DNA from: a virus
IMG/VR virus record: IMGVR_UViG_3300027859_000075
Location: 1 to 24,099 of that record
Direction: 5' to 3' (one strand)
Length of the DNA: 24,099 nt
Shown here piece after piece: positions 1 through 23,387 of this stretch. The notes under the pieces are model-generated. The model was not told the origin of the DNA, made no database searches, and saw only the letters and a program-made list of their open reading frames with translations. Positions within the stretch are counted from its first letter, which is position 1. Each line of letters begins with the position of its first letter. Both the position numbers and the translations under genes were made by a program.

Positions 1-174
1 CTAAGTACAAAAACTAATAACTAGAGAATAATCTGGAGACTAAGCTATAAATTTCTAGAAACTTATATACAGTCCTTAATAAAAATATCGGAAAATCAGA
101 GAAAATTTGGACGAATTTGTAGTAAATTGTGGAAATATGGATTGTGTAATGCAACTTTGATTGGTTTTTATTGG

Positions 175-340
175 TAACAGTTAATTAACTTAAGTTGCAT
201 CGTTGTCTTCCTTGCTACTAACGACAACTTCGAAGGTAAGCTCTTTCGCTTGCGCTACAGAGCTCTTCTTCACACGAAGTGTCATTAAGCAAGGTCATCA
301 AGAGAGATGATGAATTGTAGATTGTTGTGATTAACTGTTA
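175..340 (-). ncRNA. candidate structured RNA, own promoter
   Basis: This stretch has higher GC than its AT-rich flanks and follows directly after a leftward promoter (355-383). Its ends are a perfect 11-bp inverted repeat: 330-340 pairs with 175-185 (TAACAGTTAAT in the RNA 5' end). Inside, read leftward, are local hairpins: CATCA/TGATG, ACAC-TTC-GTGT, AGCTCT/AGAGCT with an inner CGC/GCG, and GTTGTC/GACAAC. The 15-nt loop of the last contains AGCAAGG, which is complementary to an upstream CCTTGCT, so a pseudoknot is possible. A 32-codon frame (285-190) also fits, so coding is not excluded. No known RNA family is recognised and no poly-U terminator is visible at its 3' end. Confidence 0.4.
190..285 (-). 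CDS. possible 31-residue small protein
   Basis: An ATG at 285 opens a 31-codon frame ending in TAA at 190-192. The peptide starts MTLRVKKSS, has a strand-like centre (ELTFEVVV) and an acidic tail (KEDNDAT). An in-frame stop lies four codons upstream, so this is the only ATG start. No Shine-Dalgarno sequence precedes it, unlike most neighbours, and the same bases form strong hairpins. Either the RNA structure or the peptide may be the functional product. Confidence 0.25.
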   Translation of the reverse strand: MTLRVKKSSVAQAKELTFEVVVSSKEDNDAT

Positions 341-354
341 TTTTTAATATAATT

Positions 355-383
355 ATTATACCATGACTTTATCAAAAACGCAA
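355..383 (-). promoter_or_regulatory. sigma70-like promoter, leftward
   Basis: On the minus strand a TATAAT box (355-360) lies 17 bp from TTGCGT (378-383), preceded by TTC and an A/T-rich tract that could act as an UP element. The -35 matches the consensus only in TTG. Transcription would start near 348, just before the closing stem of the candidate RNA. The repeat CCATGAC/GTCATGG (361-367 and 400-406) flanks the -35 and could be an operator pair. Confidence 0.55.
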
Positions 384-478: not shown

Positions 479-712
479 TTAAGGAATAAGTCTATCCTTC
501 CTCTTTGCCTCTAAAGCTAGTGATTTTATCCTGCTTAATTCCTTTTGATTGCGTCTTCGCGCAGCGTTCTTCAACCTCTGCCTCTTGGCACTCGGCTTTT
601 CGTAACTCTGACGCTTACGAACTTCGAGAACTATTCCAGCGTTATCACATTTTCTTTTGAATATGCGTAAAGCTTTTTGAGTTGGCATATTTTTGCAATC
701 AATTGATGGCAT
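479..712 (-). CDS. rpsU: ribosomal protein bS21
   Basis: This 77-residue protein is a phage-borne homologue of small-subunit protein bS21, which binds 16S rRNA near the anti-Shine-Dalgarno end and affects initiation. The family signature is clear: ALRIFKRKCDNAG at residues 14-26, then EVRKRQSYEKPSAKRQR and a basic helical tail. Length matches cellular bS21 (about 70 residues). The start has a good AGGAGA site six bases upstream. It overlaps the end of the upstream SANT-like gene by 14 bp, so both are probably translated from one transcript started near 881. bS21 is known from SAR11 and other marine phages and may replace host bS21 to bias ribosomes towards phage mRNA; that role is inference here. 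Confidence 0.93.
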   Translation of the reverse strand: MPSIDCKNMPTQKALRIFKRKCDNAGIVLEVRKRQSYEKPSAKRQRLKNAARRRNQKELSRIKSLALEAKRKDRLIP

Positions 713-881
713 TGTCTCTCCTAGTGTGAAAAGTCCACCCTCTTTTTCTTAAGTAGTGGACTTGTGATTGAATTGACTGTAATGAACGCCCAGGAAATAA
801 TAGCAACAACTGTTTTGTTTCAACAGCGTTGTAGTATTTTTTGAGTCTGTGCTTCTCAGGCGTAGTCCATTGTTTAGTCAT
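699..881 (-). CDS. small SANT/Myb-like DNA-binding protein
   Basis: This is a 60-residue basic protein. Residues 5-50 look like one three-helix SANT/Myb unit: WTTPEKHRLKKYY, then LLLLFPGRSLQSIQSQVHYLRKRGW, with spaced tryptophans and the arginine-rich third helix expected to touch DNA. It is the first gene of a leftward unit with bS21. The ATG lies only five bases after the -10 box at 887-892, so the message is probably leaderless. It may be a small regulator; the target is unknown. Similar repeats occur in the proteins at 8765-9238 and 13121-13837. Confidence 0.65.
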   Translation of the reverse strand: MTKQWTTPEKHRLKKYYNAVETKQLLLLFPGRSLQSIQSQVHYLRKRGWTFHTRRDNAIN

Positions 882-7623: not shown

Positions 7624-7887
7624 ATGGAATTAACCACCACAATAGCAGTATTCTATTTTGCAGGAGTTCTAACAGCTATGTATAGTTTATACATACCTTC
7701 ATGGAACTTTGTTAGAGCAGCACAACCAAATAATATAATGGTAAGGCTTTATATAAGAGCCGCCCTTGTAGTATTTATTATGTTCTCTCTAGTTATGCCT
7801 TTTTTAATTGTAGTTATGCTAATACCTAGTTTAACTGACTCATTTATAAAAGGTTTTGCAAAAGGAATGATGGGAATGAATATATAA
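7624..7887 (+). CDS. two-span membrane protein
   Basis: An 87-residue protein with AGGA eight bases before its ATG. Two hydrophobic spans are clear: residues about 4-25 and about 44-70 (AALVVFIMFSLVMPFLIVVM). They are separated by a basic loop (VRAAQPNN). The topology resembles holins, but the gene lies away from the lysis group and directly before iscU (1-bp overlap). Its role is unknown. Confidence 0.65.
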   Translation: MELTTTIAVFYFAGVLTAMYSLYIPSWNFVRAAQPNNIMVRLYIRAALVVFIMFSLVMPFLIVVMLIPSLTDSFIKGFAKGMMGMNI

Positions 7888-8303
7888 TGGCATATAGTAA
7901 AGAAGTAGTAGATAGATTTGAGAAAGTCCTTAAAAATCCAAAGGACTTTGCAGTTGGTAAATTTGACCCACAGGCACCCAATGTAGCAACAGCTATGGTG
8001 GGAGCCCCTGCGTGCGGCGATGTCATGAAACTACAACTTCGCCTCAATGATGAAGGAATAATAAATGGAGTCAAATTTAAGACTTATGGTTGTGGCTCTG
8101 CCATTGCTTCTTCATCTTTGTTTGTAGATATGCTACAAGGCAAAACAATAGAAGAAGCGAAACAAATAACAAATAAAGAAATCGCCGAAGCACTAAGCCT
8201 TCCTGCAATTAAATTGCATTGTTCAATTTTAGCAGAAGAAGGGATAAAAAAGGCTATCGAAGATTGGGAAGGAAAAGTTGCAAAAAGAAAGCATAATCAG
8301 TAA
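7887..8303 (+). CDS. iscU: Fe-S cluster scaffold protein IscU
   Basis: This 138-residue protein is an IscU/NifU N-terminal scaffold on which Fe-S clusters are built from sulfur supplied by a cysteine desulfurase. All active residues are there: Cys43 and Asp45 in GAPACGD, Cys69 in KTYGCGS, and His111 and Cys112 in KLHCSILAEE. The chaperone-recognition motif LPPVK reads LPAIK (105-109), so docking with host HscA may differ. Length fits bacterial IscU (about 128). No IscS or HscA gene is in the window, so host sulfur supply would be required. With the A-type carrier at 2231 the phage carries both scaffold and carrier. It shares one base with the preceding membrane-protein gene. Confidence 0.95.
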   Translation: MAYSKEVVDRFEKVLKNPKDFAVGKFDPQAPNVATAMVGAPACGDVMKLQLRLNDEGIINGVKFKTYGCGSAIASSSLFVDMLQGKTIEEAKQITNKEIAEALSLPAIKLHCSILAEEGIKKAIEDWEGKVAKRKHNQ

Positions 8304-9967: not shown

Positions 9968-10267
9968 ATGAATTATGACCAATTCGGTCGCAAACTCAAA
10001 CGAAAAGGAAAGCTCCGTTCGTCTAGTCAGGTCAGGACGACTGCCTGTCGAGCAGTTAGCAAGGGTTCAAATCCCTTACGGAGCGCCAAGAAACCTTGCT
10101 CTACGAAAGAGGAGTTTCTTGAAAGACTTAAATCCGTTTCGAGTAATTCTACAACAAAAACAGATTGGAAACTTGAAGAAAGTAGAAAACATACTGTGGC
10201 TCCAGCATATAACAAAGGAGCCTATCAAGTTATACCTAAAAATGAAGTAAAGGACATAGGAAGATGA
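9968..10267 (+). CDS. small basic phage protein containing a tRNA gene
   Basis: A 99-residue open frame. It starts MNYDQFGRKLKRKGK and ends with the protein-like ESRKHTVAPAYNKGAYQVIP, then KNEVKDIGR, which I believe occurs in small conserved phage proteins. Residues 15-41 are the forward translation of a complete tRNA-Asp gene on the same strand. Both ends look coding and the frame stays open through the tRNA, so the tRNA may have been inserted in frame. Processing of the tRNA would cut the message. ATG 9968 has AAAGG before it; ATG 9950 sits at the predicted transcript start and would add six residues. The stop overlaps the ligase start (ATGA). Confidence 0.55.
   Translation: MNYDQFGRKLKRKGKLRSSSQVRTTACRAVSKGSNPLRSAKKPCSTKEEFLERLKSVSSNSTTKTDWKLEESRKHTVAPAYNKGAYQVIPKNEVKDIGR
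10012..10088 (+). tRNA. tRNA-Asp (GTC), CCA encoded
   Basis: All four arms close. Acceptor GCTCCGT (10012-10018) pairs with ACGGAGC (10078-10084). The D stem is GTCT/GGAC with one G-T pair. The anticodon stem is ACTGC/GCAGT, with the loop CTGTCGA giving anticodon GTC at 10047-10049. The T stem is AAGGG/CCCTT with loop TTCAAAT. The discriminator is G, as required for Asp, and CCA follows directly. The variable loop is four bases. Position 37 is G, where bacterial tRNA-Asp usually has A. It lies inside an open frame on the same strand. Confidence 0.95.
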
Positions 10268-11232
10268 GTTATAATCCTACATCAGAATTAGAAGCATTTA
10301 TTAATAGAGCTAGAATAGCTTATTATAATGGTATGCCTCTAATACCTGATGAATTATATGATGTATTGGAAAAGCGTTCAGGTTTAATAGAAGATATTGG
10401 ACATGAACTTGAGCCAAGAGATTCTAGGTTTAACCATTTATACCCTATGTATTCTTTACAAAAAGTCTATGAAGGAGATAAGCCTCCCAATTATGGAAGA
10501 AACCCTGTAGTAGTTTCTCCTAAATTAGATGGTGCTGCAGTAGCTTTAACATACTTAAATGGAAAGCTAAATCAAGCATTAACTAGAGGAGATGGTAAAG
10601 CAGGACTAGATTGTACTCCACAAATGAGAGAATTATTACAATTCGATTTACCCGAAGAAGCCACCGCAATACCTATTCAAATAACAGGAGAGTTAGTGGC
10701 TCCTAAAACAATTCCTAATGCAAGAAATTATGCAGCAGGAGCATTAAATTTAAAATCTTTATTTCAGTTCAAAGAAAGACAAGTATTCTTTATAGCATAT
10801 GGAATACAGCCTTACTTAGAGGAGTCTTATACTGATAATTTAATAAAACTTAATGAGTGGGGATTTGAAACCTGCATAGATAGTCCTTATTTAGAGTTTC
10901 CTCATGATGGCGAGGTATTCAGAGTAGATAGTAATAATTACTTTGAAGAACTTGGTTATACATCAAAACACCCAAGAGGAGCTTTTGCTCTAAAAGAAAA
11001 GCCTGATGGCATAGTAACAAAACTATTAGATGTACTATGGCAAGTAGGAAAAAGTGGTGCAATATCGCCAGTGGCTGTACTAGAGCCAATAAATATTGAT
11101 GGCGCTATAGTATCAAGAGCAACTTTACATAATAGTGCAGTAATTGAAGGTCTTGGACTAGAGATAGGCTGTACAGTAGAGGTCATAAGGGCAGGGGGAA
11201 TTATCCCCCAAGTAATATCACGAGTGGATTAA
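10264..11232 (+). CDS. NAD-dependent DNA ligase, N-terminal half (LigA-type)
   Basis: A 322-residue protein with the first three domains of bacterial LigA. Domain Ia comes first (AYYNGMPLIPDELYDVL), which binds the nicotinamide part of NAD. The adenylation domain follows, with Lys87 in SPKLDG as the AMP acceptor, then LTRGDGKAG, ITGELVAP and FFIAYGIQ. The OB fold is last (WQVGKSGAISPVA to AGGIIPQV). The frame stops where the zinc finger should begin. In the motif IV position the sequence reads DGEVFRVDS, with Arg for the usual Lys. The zinc finger, helix-hairpin-helix and BRCT parts lie in a second gene at 12355. Together the two (581 residues) are shorter than E. coli LigA (671). Split ligases are known in T5. 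Confidence 0.93.
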   Translation: MSYNPTSELEAFINRARIAYYNGMPLIPDELYDVLEKRSGLIEDIGHELEPRDSRFNHLYPMYSLQKVYEGDKPPNYGRNPVVVSPKLDGAAVALTYLNGKLNQALTRGDGKAGLDCTPQMRELLQFDLPEEATAIPIQITGELVAPKTIPNARNYAAGALNLKSLFQFKERQVFFIAYGIQPYLEESYTDNLIKLNEWGFETCIDSPYLEFPHDGEVFRVDSNNYFEELGYTSKHPRGAFALKEKPDGIVTKLLDVLWQVGKSGAISPVAVLEPINIDGAIVSRATLHNSAVIEGLGLEIGCTVEVIRAGGIIPQVISRVD

Positions 11233-11234
11233 TT

Positions 11235-11405
11235 ATGAAATTTAACTACAAAGTAAAGGTTGAGTTTAAAGACAAACCTGTATCAGCAGAATATACTTTT
11301 GAAAGACTAAGCGATGCTTTGGACTTTCAATATAGAGTATCAAATATGAATGAATGTAATTTTAGTTTAATAGCAGAAGAAGAAAGTGAGCAAAGACAGA
11401 TTTGA
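11235..11405 (+). CDS. small protein, unknown role
   Basis: A 56-residue protein starting two bases after the ligase half. It has alternating strands (MKFNYKVKVEFKDKPVSAEY), then a helix (RLSDALDFQYRVSN) and an acidic tail. The plan is strand-strand-helix. No SD is evident, so translation may be coupled to the ligase. It overlaps the SET gene by 20 bp. No family recognised. Confidence 0.6.
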   Translation: MKFNYKVKVEFKDKPVSAEYTFERLSDALDFQYRVSNMNECNFSLIAEEESEQRQI

Positions 11406-11694
11406 AAACGCCTATCGTCCTCTTCCAGATATTGTACACTTAGACTACTCGCCCATTGAGGGCATGGGAGTATTTGCTAAGTTTGATTTAGATGGGAAGA
11501 TATGTATAGGTATAACACACGTAGCGCCTATTAAAAAAGATTTAGGTAGACAAAGAACTCCGCTCGGAGGTTTTGTTAATCATAGTGATAATCCCAACTG
11601 TTTTATAGTAGTAGAAACCGAATTTTCAAGAATGTATACAGTACGACCTATAATGCAAGGAGAAGAATTAACAGTTTATTATACAGGATATTAA
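11386..11694 (+). CDS. SET-domain protein
   Basis: A 102-residue protein with a compact SET fold, starting at GTG. The three SET marks are in order: SPIEGMGVFAK (residues about 22-32) for the first strand pair, GGFVNHSDNPNC (about 61-72) for the Asn-His S-adenosylmethionine pocket, and GEELTVYYTGY (about 92-102) with the catalytic tyrosine region. SET proteins methylate lysines, classically of histones; bacterial and phage members act on ribosomal or other proteins. There is no pre-SET or post-SET zinc region, and the C-terminus ends right after the tyrosine motif, so it is minimal. The target is unknown. Confidence 0.85.
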   Translation: MSKDRFENAYRPLPDIVHLDYSPIEGMGVFAKFDLDGKICIGITHVAPIKKDLGRQRTPLGGFVNHSDNPNCFIVVETEFSRMYTVRPIMQGEELTVYYTGY

Positions 11695-12324: not shown

Positions 12325-12354
12325 AATAGAATATAAAAATTGGAGAAGAAAGAA

Positions 12355-13134
12355 TTGAGAGAAATAGTTCCACCCACACATTGTCCTGCCTGTAGCGCAG
12401 AACTTGTATGGCAGAAGGATATACTATACTGCATGAATAAAAACGAATGTCCTGCTCAATCTACTAAAAAAGTTGAGCATTTTGCAAAAACTTTAAAGAT
12501 TAAAGGACTCGGACCAGCAGCTATAGAAAGACTCGACCTATTCTCAATCTCTGATATTTATAGTCTAACCGAACAAGATTTGATAGAAGGGTTGGATTCA
12601 GAGAAACTAGGTACGAAGTTACACGCAGAAATTGAAAAGAGTAAGACTGCCGACCTAATCACTCTGTTACCAGCTTTTTCGATACCGCTGATAGGTCAAA
12701 GCGCTTCAAACAAGTTTAGAAATAAAATTTCGACTATTAGCGAGATAACCCTAGAAAAATGTAACGAAGTTGGTCTGGGGCCTAAAGCGGCATCGAACCT
12801 TGTTAGTTGGTTAGAAAACACTTTTCATTCCGAAAAGTTTTACGAGTTGCCGTTTTCATTTACTTGTGAGATAACCTTTACTGAAGAAAAAAGTAAAGGT
12901 ACAGTATGTATCACAGGGAAATTGAAGTCTTATAAGACTAAAGCGATTGCACAGCAAATTTTAATGCAAAACGGATTTGATGTAAAGGACAATCTCACAA
13001 AAGATGTTAATTACTTGCTAAACGAAAGTGGAATCGAAAGTGCAAAAACACAGAAGGCTCATTCAATGGGCATAACAGTATATAACAATATAAAACAATT
13101 ATTAAACACGGAGAATAATCATGGCACTACCTAA
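12355..13134 (+). CDS. NAD-dependent DNA ligase, C-terminal half
   Basis: A 259-residue protein carrying the domains missing from the first half. The Zn finger is at the N-terminus, with a CPAC pair and a second pair in CMNKNECPAQ. Helix-hairpin-helix repeats follow (KGLGPAAIERLD, VGLGPKAASNLVSWL). A BRCT domain closes it (GTVCITGKLKSYKTKAIAQQ to about residue 250). These parts clamp nicked DNA, so the protein should work in complex with the adenylation half. The start is TTG 12355, six bases after GGAGAAG; another TTG at 12340 overlaps that site. It has its own promoter with a dyad, so the halves may be regulated separately. The end overlaps the next gene by 14 bp. Confidence 0.9.
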   Translation: MREIVPPTHCPACSAELVWQKDILYCMNKNECPAQSTKKVEHFAKTLKIKGLGPAAIERLDLFSISDIYSLTEQDLIEGLDSEKLGTKLHAEIEKSKTADLITLLPAFSIPLIGQSASNKFRNKISTISEITLEKCNEVGLGPKAASNLVSWLENTFHSEKFYELPFSFTCEITFTEEKSKGTVCITGKLKSYKTKAIAQQILMQNGFDVKDNLTKDVNYLLNESGIESAKTQKAHSMGITVYNNIKQLLNTENNHGTT

Positions 13135-19119: not shown

Positions 19120-19319
19120 TGGAAGAAATGAGTTACACAGGTTATTTATTAACATTCTGTATAATGAGTTTTACACTAATATTATGTTCTGTACTTTCCC
19201 TCCAAGATAAAAGAATAAAAACGGCTAAGCTTAGTGAAATAATGAGGGATAAAAATAAGCAAAGTAAAGTTTTTGATATGCAGTCTACTGCAAAGTATGT
19301 ACAAGGAGATAATACATGA
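19119..19319 (+). CDS. small membrane protein before cytochrome c
   Basis: A 66-residue protein sharing one base with the polymerase stop. One hydrophobic span (residues about 7-27, YLLTFCIMSFTLILC) is followed by a basic cytoplasmic-type tail. It overlaps the cytochrome gene by 4 bp, so the two could act in one membrane unit, but no domain is recognised. Confidence 0.62.
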   Translation: MEEMSYTGYLLTFCIMSFTLILCSVLSLQDKRIKTAKLSEIMRDKNKQSKVFDMQSTAKYVQGDNT

Positions 19320-19750
19320 AAGATGCGTTAATAACTGCAACTGTAGGAGTATTAGGAATATCAGGTATTTTTTATGCTACAATTAGTAATGCAGAAGTAA
19401 AAGGCTATACAGATGTTCATGGTTGTTGGGGAGAATGTTATGAAGAATATACTGCAGAGTATGGAACATTCTCAGAACAACTAGAAGCAAAAAGAATTGC
19501 AATGCAAGGAGAAAGTCCTGCAGACAAAGGTGCAAAGACATATGTTAATTGTAATATGTGTCATGGCATGAAAGGAGAAGGAGGCATAGGGCCAAAACTA
19601 GTAGGAAGCACTTCTATAGTGAAGATGCTAACTCAGTATAAAAATGGAGAAACAAGAGGAGCTCAGTCTGCACTTATGTGGGGACAAGCAGCAAATTTAT
19701 CAACAGAGGATATGCAAAATTTACAGGCATATATAGATACTTTTAAATGA
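19316..19750 (+). CDS. class I cytochrome c
   Basis: A 144-residue exported haem protein. A signal peptide (about residues 1-26, ending SNA) leads to the periplasm. Residues about 70-144 form a cytochrome c domain: CNMCHG (Cys79, Cys82, His83) binds the haem, GIGPKLVGS follows, and Met121 in SALMWGQA is the likely second axial ligand, with the terminal helix NLSTEDMQNLQAYI. The segment between signal and domain is extra and has two cysteines (GCWGEC, 37 and 41). Haem attachment would need the host cytochrome c maturation system. It lies between two membrane-protein genes in the replication block. Cytochrome c is an uncommon phage gene; its electron partners are not in the window. Confidence 0.9.
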   Translation: MKDALITATVGVLGISGIFYATISNAEVKGYTDVHGCWGECYEEYTAEYGTFSEQLEAKRIAMQGESPADKGAKTYVNCNMCHGMKGEGGIGPKLVGSTSIVKMLTQYKNGETRGAQSALMWGQAANLSTEDMQNLQAYIDTFK

Positions 19751-22255: not shown

Positions 22256-22866
22256 AATTTAATGAATCAAAAGGTGAAGCTGTCAAAAATAAAATTGACA
22301 GTTATCAATATGTCGAAGGCGACAATAAAGTAAGAATGGTAGGCGATATCTGTGCAAGATACGTTTACTGGTTAAAAGGTGAGAACGGTAAGAACTTACC
22401 TTTCGAATGTCTATCATTTGATAGAGAGAAGGAACTATTTAATAACCTAGAAAAAGACTGGGTTAGAGAATACCACCCTGAATTAAAGTGTGGTTGGTCT
22501 TATGCAATTCAATGCATACATGATGGCAAAGTAAAAGTCTTAAATCTCAAGAAGAAACTAATGGAGCAAATTAAAGTTGCTGCAGAAGATTTAGGTGACC
22601 CTACAGATTTAGAAACTGGTTGGGACGTCCACTTCAAAAGAGTAAAGACTGGACCTATGGCATATAATGTAGAGTACCAACTACAAGCACTTAAGTGCAA
22701 AAATAGAGCACTCGATGACAACGAAATGGAATTGGTTGCAGAATTAAAATCAATGGACGAAGTATTACCTAGACCTACTCCTGATGCTCAGAAAGAGCTT
22801 CTTGATAGAATTAGGGCAGGCTCCAGTAACAGCGACGAAACTGCTGCTGAGGAGTTTGATGTCTAA
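22246..22866 (+). CDS. single-stranded DNA-binding protein, gp32-like
   Basis: A 206-residue protein. The start of the OB-type core is EGDNKVRMVGDICARYVYWL (about residues 24-43), which I know from phage ssDNA-binding proteins of marine groups. An aromatic-rich centre follows (WSYAIQCIHDGKVKVLNLKK). The C-terminal 30 residues end in SDETAAEEFDV, the acidic tail with which SSB and gp32 contact other replication proteins. Size is below T4 gp32 (301). No zinc site is evident. Position beside helicase, polymerase and nuclease genes supports the call. The exact family needs a profile search. Confidence 0.78.
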   Translation: MALKFNESKGEAVKNKIDSYQYVEGDNKVRMVGDICARYVYWLKGENGKNLPFECLSFDREKELFNNLEKDWVREYHPELKCGWSYAIQCIHDGKVKVLNLKKKLMEQIKVAAEDLGDPTDLETGWDVHFKRVKTGPMAYNVEYQLQALKCKNRALDDNEMELVAELKSMDEVLPRPTPDAQKELLDRIRAGSSNSDETAAEEFDV

Positions 22867-23387
22867 TGATAGGAGTTGGAGAAGAATTTCCTCATACCAC
22901 ACTTAACGGTGTAGTAGGCATTAATCCTAATAAAGTCATAAAACAAGTCTATACTGATGATGAACAAGGAGATTGGAAAGTAATTTTCTTTTACCCAAAA
23001 GATTTTACATTTATCTGTCCTACAGAAATCGTAGCATTTGAAAAAGTTGCAGAACAAGAGGACTGTAGTGTATATGGCATTAGTCCAGATAACGAATACT
23101 GTCATCTTGAATGGTTAGAAAATAACCCAATATTAGAAGATGTTTCTTTTCCATTACTTGCAGACTCAGGAAATATGTTAGCAGAAGATTTAGAAATAGT
23201 AAGCGAAGAATTTGTACCTTATAGAGCTACTTACATAGTAGACCCAGAAGGTATTATTCAGCATGTTTCAGTCAATGCACTTGACACAGGAAGAAATGTC
23301 GATGAAATCATTAGAACTTTACACGCACTACGAGCAGGTGGATTAACTGGTTGCTCATGGGCTGCAGGAGACGAGTTCGTAGCATGA
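22866..23387 (+). CDS. 2-Cys peroxiredoxin (AhpC/Prx type)
   Basis: A 173-residue thiol peroxidase that reduces hydrogen and organic peroxides. The active site PKDFTFICPTE supplies Pro44, Thr48 and peroxidatic Cys51; Arg120 (PYRATYIV) completes the pocket. The resolving Cys163 lies in the C-terminal LTGCSWAAGDEFV. The full set predicts an active enzyme. Length and motifs match bacterial AhpC/Prx1 proteins. Reduction would come from host thioredoxin or AhpF-like partners; a phage glutaredoxin is encoded at 2547. The start shares one base with the stop of the ssDNA-binding protein gene. It was probably acquired from a bacterium. Confidence 0.93.
   Translation: MIGVGEEFPHTTLNGVVGINPNKVIKQVYTDDEQGDWKVIFFYPKDFTFICPTEIVAFEKVAEQEDCSVYGISPDNEYCHLEWLENNPILEDVSFPLLADSGNMLAEDLEIVSEEFVPYRATYIVDPEGIIQHVSVNALDTGRNVDEIIRTLHALRAGGLTGCSWAAGDEFVA

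Follow-up and report, generated by a model that had tools for sequence, protein, structure and literature searches.

Gene context of the locus

The locus lies in what we call the window, the entire stretch of 24,099 nucleotides analyzed here (virus record IMGVR_UViG_3300027859_000075, positions 1 to 24,099). A gene encoding the phage ribosomal protein bS21, together with a gene for a 60-amino-acid protein upstream of it, reads on the minus strand toward a promoter, a series of inverted repeats and a conserved AT-rich element (Table 1). Beyond this region is the NYTEEQV gene (L018:3936-4274 and relatives), the product of which matches the Pfam IF-2 N-terminal domain with 27.5 bits against a cut-off of 25.3 bits.

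From their sequences, the phages appear to be related to T5 in their replication genes and not to be members of that family, because the window has no DNA in common with any isolate (megablast of the window against isolates gave no match) and the bS21 search found distant matches only. When the region itself was compared with the DNA of isolated phages, the matches were likewise no better than chance. The window's PolA is 45% identical to that of T5-like Proteus phages, and its NAD-dependent DNA ligase is split (10264-11232 and 12340-13134); the NAD-dependent ligase of T5 is also split in two ORFs. An ORF located between the ligase halves of the window (11386-11694, plus strand) encodes a small protein with a SET domain (Pfam SET, 33 bits).

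A glutamine riboswitch (RF01739, 46.5 bits; 1182-1296) precedes a gene for a 53-amino-acid YRG-repeat peptide with a weak match to DUF4278. This minus-strand module (964-1296) is present in L002 and missing from the same place in L003, so that even close relatives differ in having it. Because the window contains this riboswitch, and glutamine riboswitches are used in phages of OM43 and SAR11 (PMC9004378), a streamlined marine bacterium is a plausible host. The window also encodes NifU/IscU-like (7887-8303) and IscA-like (2231-2554) proteins, an AhpC/TSA peroxiredoxin (22866-23387) and a c-type cytochrome (Cytochrome_CBB3, 29 bits; 19316-19750, plus strand).

Table 1. Features of the predicted RNA and its surroundings, in window coordinates
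Feature	Position	Strand	Observation
60-aa protein gene, upstream of bS21	699..881	(-)	conserved with bS21 in L002, L003, L018, L019, L029; no Pfam match
Phage ribosomal protein bS21 gene	479..712	(-)	Pfam Ribosomal_S21, E 6.9e-17; upstream of RNA
-35 element TTGCGT	378..383	(-)	TTGC/TTGT in most of 59 homologs; CTAGC/CTTTC in a few
-10 element TATAAT	355..360	(-)	TATAAT or TAAAAT in 59/59 homologs
Inverted repeat, perfect 11 bp, TAACAGTTAAT / ATTAACTGTTA	175-185 / 330-340		located by sequence
7-bp complement AGCAAGG / CCTTGCT	288-294 / 210-216		located by sequence
P1 5' arm TAACAGTTAAT	330..340	(-)	covariation
Unpaired 5' box CACAACAATCTACAA; family form ACAAtCa	315..329	(-)	box in 55/59 homologs
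Small hairpin P7, TCATCA/TGATGA	295..313	(-)	window's own subgroup only; absent from L014/L015
P2a 5' arm CCTTGCT	288..294	(-)	C-G to U-A and U-A to C-G in L014/L015
P2b 5' arm TAATGAC	281..287	(-)	two-sided changes at three pairs
P3 hairpin ACAC-UUC-GUGU	272..282	(-)	invariant inside window's group
P5 AGCTCT/AGAGCT, capped by GC-GNAA-GC apical hairpin (248-255)	239..264	(-)	cap in 58/59 homologs
P2b 3' arm GTCGTTA	219..225	(-)	covariation
P2a 3' arm AGCAAGG	210..216	(-)	covariation
P6 5' arm ATGCAACTT	192..200	(-)	two-sided changes at three pairs
P1 3' arm ATTAACTGTTA, within P6 loop	175..185	(-)	covariation
A-rich pseudoknot loop CCAATAAAAACCAATC, CCAAC-like motif	159..174	(-)	AAAnYCAAm-related motif in 36/59 homologs
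P6 3' arm AAGTTGCAT	149..157	(-)	covariation
Conserved 3' element CCACAATTTACTACAAATTCGTCCAAATTTTC	101..132	(-)	kept in window's group; AATTACTAnAAA/TTAACTACAATT recognizable in other groups

Strand, promoter and extent of the predicted RNA

The original prediction of a new phage RNA, structured and with a promoter to itself, had described an 11-bp inverted repeat, a 7-bp complement and local hairpins, all of which are found in their places. It had regarded the 7-bp match as possibly due to chance and the 11-bp stem as unlikely to be so, and this was a fair judgement: roughly estimated, 209 nt of the same composition would by chance contain about 2 perfect pairs of 7 bp and about 0.01 of 11 bp. 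The minus strand of 173-345 folds at -54.7 kcal/mol (z = -6.05, equaled by none of 200 dinucleotide shuffles) and the plus strand at -58.3 (z = -5.5, dinucleotide shuffles), and the window alone gives no preference between the strands. The prediction gave no strand; comparison with homologs shows that the structured RNA is encoded on the minus strand, because the conserved promoter reads on that strand and its -35/-10 arrangement is kept.

In the window the promoter is TTGCGT-17-TATAAT (383-355), with the 17-nt spacing between -35 and -10 elements maintained in homologs. A plain consensus scan gives instead an overlapping minus-strand pair, TTGATA-18-TATATT, as well as plus-strand pairs, and the call of this promoter therefore rests on its conservation, which extends to 59 loci and bears out the claim that the RNA has a promoter of its own. 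An A-tract and an upstream ACCCCTnnGAAAAA-like block are common among the 59 aligned copies, and the -35 element is of the TTG type in nearly all. The first promoter pattern that we used matched 48 of 56 loci; the remaining eight have an altered -35 element, and those displayed in the alignment have CTAGC with TATAAT intact. The -35/-10 block of L210 is approximately 82% identical over 50 nt to promoters in the early region of T5-like phages of Salmonella and E. coli (Epseptimavirus), in which, by contrast, the promoter precedes a protein gene and no such RNA lies behind it. The promoter data fit transcription by the host RNA polymerase, and the resemblance to T5-type early promoters suggests that the RNA would be made early.

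Transcription is predicted from the -10 spacing to start near 348. The 3' boundary at 175 that had been proposed is too short, as it missed helix P6 (200-192 with 157-149), which lies partly outside it and extends the structured part to at least 149. We therefore predict a minus-strand noncoding RNA of approximately 200 nt, possibly up to approximately 280 nt. The plain consensus scan of the region found no terminator. An AT-rich ACTACAAATTCG-like element (101-132) sits approximately 20 to 50 nt past the fold in the window's group, and may be the 3' end region of the RNA or part of a convergent transcript.

Compensatory changes among close homologs

A 25-base probe from the apical hairpin identified two viral contigs, and retrieval based on bS21 provided more. 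The resulting eleven close sequences are readily alignable, with 77 to 100% identity over the RNA. The genomes of the window, L002, L003, L010 and others are clearly related, their neighborhoods being 83 to 97% identical. In all eleven, the minus-strand promoter (TATAAT, 360-355) is upstream of the RNA and the bS21 gene is further upstream.

Compensatory changes occur in P1, P2, the apical stem and P6. In the set of nine distinct rows, two-sided changes are seen at 12 of the 50 pairs, amounting to 26 cells, compared with a mean of 7.2 in column shuffles that keep relatedness in place, and none of 500 shuffles equaled this value; when the registers were slid by one to three columns, at most three two-sided pairs were obtained. 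This covariation gives strong but not final support to the predicted fold. The P6 arms illustrate it, with AUGCAACUU/AAGUUGCAU in the window, AUACGACUU/AAGUCGUAU in L002 and AUAUGACUU/AAGUCAUAU in L015. The P1 helix of L015 (GAUGAUUGAC/GUCAAUCAUC) is in a register four columns off that of the window, and L005 has lost one base from the 5' arm of P1, with pairing restored by a change in the 3' arm (UAACAGUUAU/AUAACUGUUA). The contact between AGCAAGG and CCTTGCT, read previously as loop to strand, is instead the nested stem P2a at the base of the long hairpin, and the true pseudoknot is P1 with P6.

Toward the apex, the region of P3 has an alternative, a long-helix pairing with CUUCGAAGU (227-235). 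Read by eye, the P3 stem is substituted in other groups, for example by GAGAU/AUCUC in L222 and by GAUG/CAUC in L212. A putative helix P4 (GAAG/CTTC) is invariant in the close group, and comparison with other groups suggests that it may be an alternative to hairpin P3. The apical cap is GC-GCAA-GC in the window's group, with stem variants such as ACGUAAGU, CCGAAGG and ACGAAGU among the homologs. The L190 copy lacks the usual GC-GNAA-GC cap and has a longer stem there (CACATTTC/GAAATGTG).

A family of approximately 60 loci

By using the NYTEEQV gene beyond the RNA, we fetched 80 further viral loci. A covariance model built from the eleven close sequences (R1) matched approximately 50 of the 80, always on the expected strand and in the expected place between bS21 and the convergent gene, with scores from 69 bits down to noise. 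A second model (R2) was built from matches with E < 0.005. Among loci outside its training set, R2 scores near copies at 142 to 146 bits (E down to 8e-24), subgroup C2 at approximately 80 to 88 bits (E 1e-11 to 3e-13) and part of group B at 29 to 40 bits, several group B loci having E values of 1e-4 to 0.01. The far relative L029, in which genes are inserted between bS21 and the RNA, scores 31.9 bits. Several group B members score only 19 to 25 bits, and the weakest, at approximately 20 to 25 bits or less, were accepted on synteny and promoter and not on score. Together, covariance models and synteny point to an RNA family of approximately 60 loci in uncultured phages. The RNA is positioned downstream of the phage bS21 gene, and at all 56 testable loci, those with both flanking genes present, a convergent gene faces it and no same-strand gene follows.

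Five viral matches to AAGAGCTNACCTTCGAAG (L034, L035, L037, L038 and L040) and L031, a match from another pattern, were dropped, the rest of the RNA being absent. Matches to GAGCTNACCTTCGAAG in bacterial genomes came from a search that was too loose and are apparently due to chance, the loci containing no further motif match.

The predicted end-to-end pseudoknot

The loop of P6 contains the 3' arm of P1, and by this arrangement, as the comparison indicates, a pseudoknot joins the two RNA ends. We scored the pairing of the 3' hairpin loop with the 5' end in 29 representatives against 40 dinucleotide shuffles of each. None of the 40 shuffles reached the score in 11 of the 29 (the window, L005, L002, L015, L222, L229, L231, L212, L214, L023 and L029), and two did for L185; the test was not significant in the other 17, chiefly group B, subgroup C2, L209 and L226. 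The pseudoknot thus recurs in the diverged members L222, L229 and L029, and L237 and L190 share its topology, although their helices are shorter. The ends may be built differently in group B. Helix sequence varies from subgroup to subgroup, as does part of the layout, and helices outside the window's group were assigned partly by eye; in subgroup C1, where two insert lengths are mixed and the automatic consensus fold is consequently poor, they were read by eye.

Comparison with known RNA families

Rfam 15 contains no family matching the window, L015, L226, L212, L210, L019 or L222 at or near gathering score or at permissive thresholds, if genuine tRNAs and chance matches are set aside. We found neither a tRNA-like domain nor a tag frame, ARAGORN and the Rfam tmRNA models both gave no match, and the Rfam 6S covariance models gave none up to E = 10. 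We therefore reject tmRNA, tRNA and the Rfam families as identities for this RNA. Searches limited to openly accessible papers other than preprints found no report of it, and the family is apparently undescribed.

The 6S RNA has some likeness to the predicted structure in its closing stem, large inner loop, long apical hairpin and length of approximately 200 nt; it differs in that a pseudoknot ties the ends of the RNA of the window. The two-piece (permuted) tmRNA of the Melnitz/Mosig type is also a structured RNA of phages that infect streamlined marine bacteria, and a phage with that tmRNA carries a glutamine riboswitch (PMC9004378), as does the window. The tRNA-like domain and tag frame of that tmRNA were not detected in the window RNA.

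Discussion

The absence of a match to known RNA families, the gene order common to all 56 testable loci and the compensatory changes in several helices all favor the new structured phage RNA that was originally proposed. Comparison of the homologs shows the strand, promoter, helices and pseudoknot, together with conservation across diverged phages, and that the RNA exists has good support. With its own promoter, compact sealed scaffold, unpaired boxes and GNAA-type cap, the molecule looks like a stable trans-acting RNA, and we assign a probability of roughly 0.8 to an independent structured noncoding RNA that acts in trans.

According to our model, the host RNA polymerase would start the RNA from a T5-type early promoter, the transcript would fold into a long branched hairpin (P2/P3/P5) with a GNAA-type tetraloop cap, and its 5' end would pair with the loop of the 3' hairpin P6 to seal the ends by a pseudoknot. 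The RNA would presumably be abundant and would work in trans early in infection, as a rigid scaffold on which conserved unpaired boxes are offered to a protein of the host or the phage, either as a decoy or as a scaffold for takeover. Helix sequence changes while structure is retained, as would be expected of an RNA that binds protein more than of one that pairs with a fixed target, and on this ground we tentatively suggest that the RNA may bind protein, a proposal that we hold with less than even confidence. The RNA, for which several helices and a pseudoknot have support, is carried by many uncultured marine phages and provides a defined and testable candidate for takeover of streamlined hosts, encoded beside a viral ribosomal protein. 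What is new is an RNA family; we claim no new biochemical activity.

The neighboring genes make a role in the takeover of translation worth testing. The RNA would act together with bS21 and the IF2_N-like protein, binding ribosomes or initiation factors to favor phage mRNAs. The bS21 gene adjoins the RNA and the IF2_N-like match is found past one small gene; furthermore, ribosomes with a pelagiphage bS21 have only approximately 5% activity in vitro, and the authors of that study propose that further viral or host factors are involved (PMC6375957). Nevertheless, the match to IF2_N is a short one, our analysis brought out no sequence link from the RNA to rRNA, and in L029 the bS21 gene lies approximately 2 kb from the RNA with other genes between them. 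We consider this role unlikely, and it is improbable that the RNA is itself a phage-made translation-initiation factor that, with the two proteins, turns host ribosomes to phage mRNAs.

An antisense RNA, pairing with the mRNA of the convergent gene or with another mRNA, would account for the conserved small gene convergent with the RNA and for the conserved unpaired boxes. It is a doubtful explanation, as conservation is mostly in the structure, and in L003 the fold stops approximately 200 nt before the convergent reading frame.

That the RNA is a cis-acting element, whether a riboswitch or leader belonging to a gene downstream or else the 3' UTR of the bS21 operon, might be thought from its position close behind bS21 and from the glutamine riboswitch nearby on the same strand. 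However, each of the 56 testable loci has a convergent gene next, and because no same-strand gene follows, a leader or riboswitch is rejected by gene order. A dedicated promoter separates bS21 from the RNA in all 59 copies, and we regard any cis-acting role as very improbable.

Still less credible is a DNA element such as a replication origin, nick site or packaging site, in which the hairpins would form in single-stranded DNA, perhaps primed by the transcript. The site between two gene blocks of opposite direction and the strongly AT-rich conserved element after the fold would suit it, whereas conservation of the promoter in 59 copies argues for a transcript. An origin is unsupported by GC skew: in L019 (88 kb), which has the RNA at 28 kb, the skew switches near 18 kb and 80 kb.

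The 31-codon frame on the minus strand (285-190), named beforehand as the main rival, can be dismissed almost entirely, for although it is intact in the window, L010 and L005, and L005 alters four apical-loop residues without a break, these are 3 of the 9 distinct group A sequences, with a stop in L012, a 1-nt deletion in L009 and L011, no ATG in L002, L014 and L015 and a frameshift in L014 and L015, and the compensatory changes track pairs and not codons. The prediction was to be refuted by a peptide conserved without the stems; we find the stems conserved and the peptide not.

The tRNA regions of T4 and T5 encode small stable phage RNAs of unknown function. The RNA described here resembles them, as judged by description, in being near tRNA genes in L212 and L185. 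In L212, four tRNA genes (Glu, Ala, Asp and Thr; L212:4679-5014) lie on the opposite strand between the convergent gene and the RNA, and in L185 four tRNA genes lie beyond bS21, on its other side.
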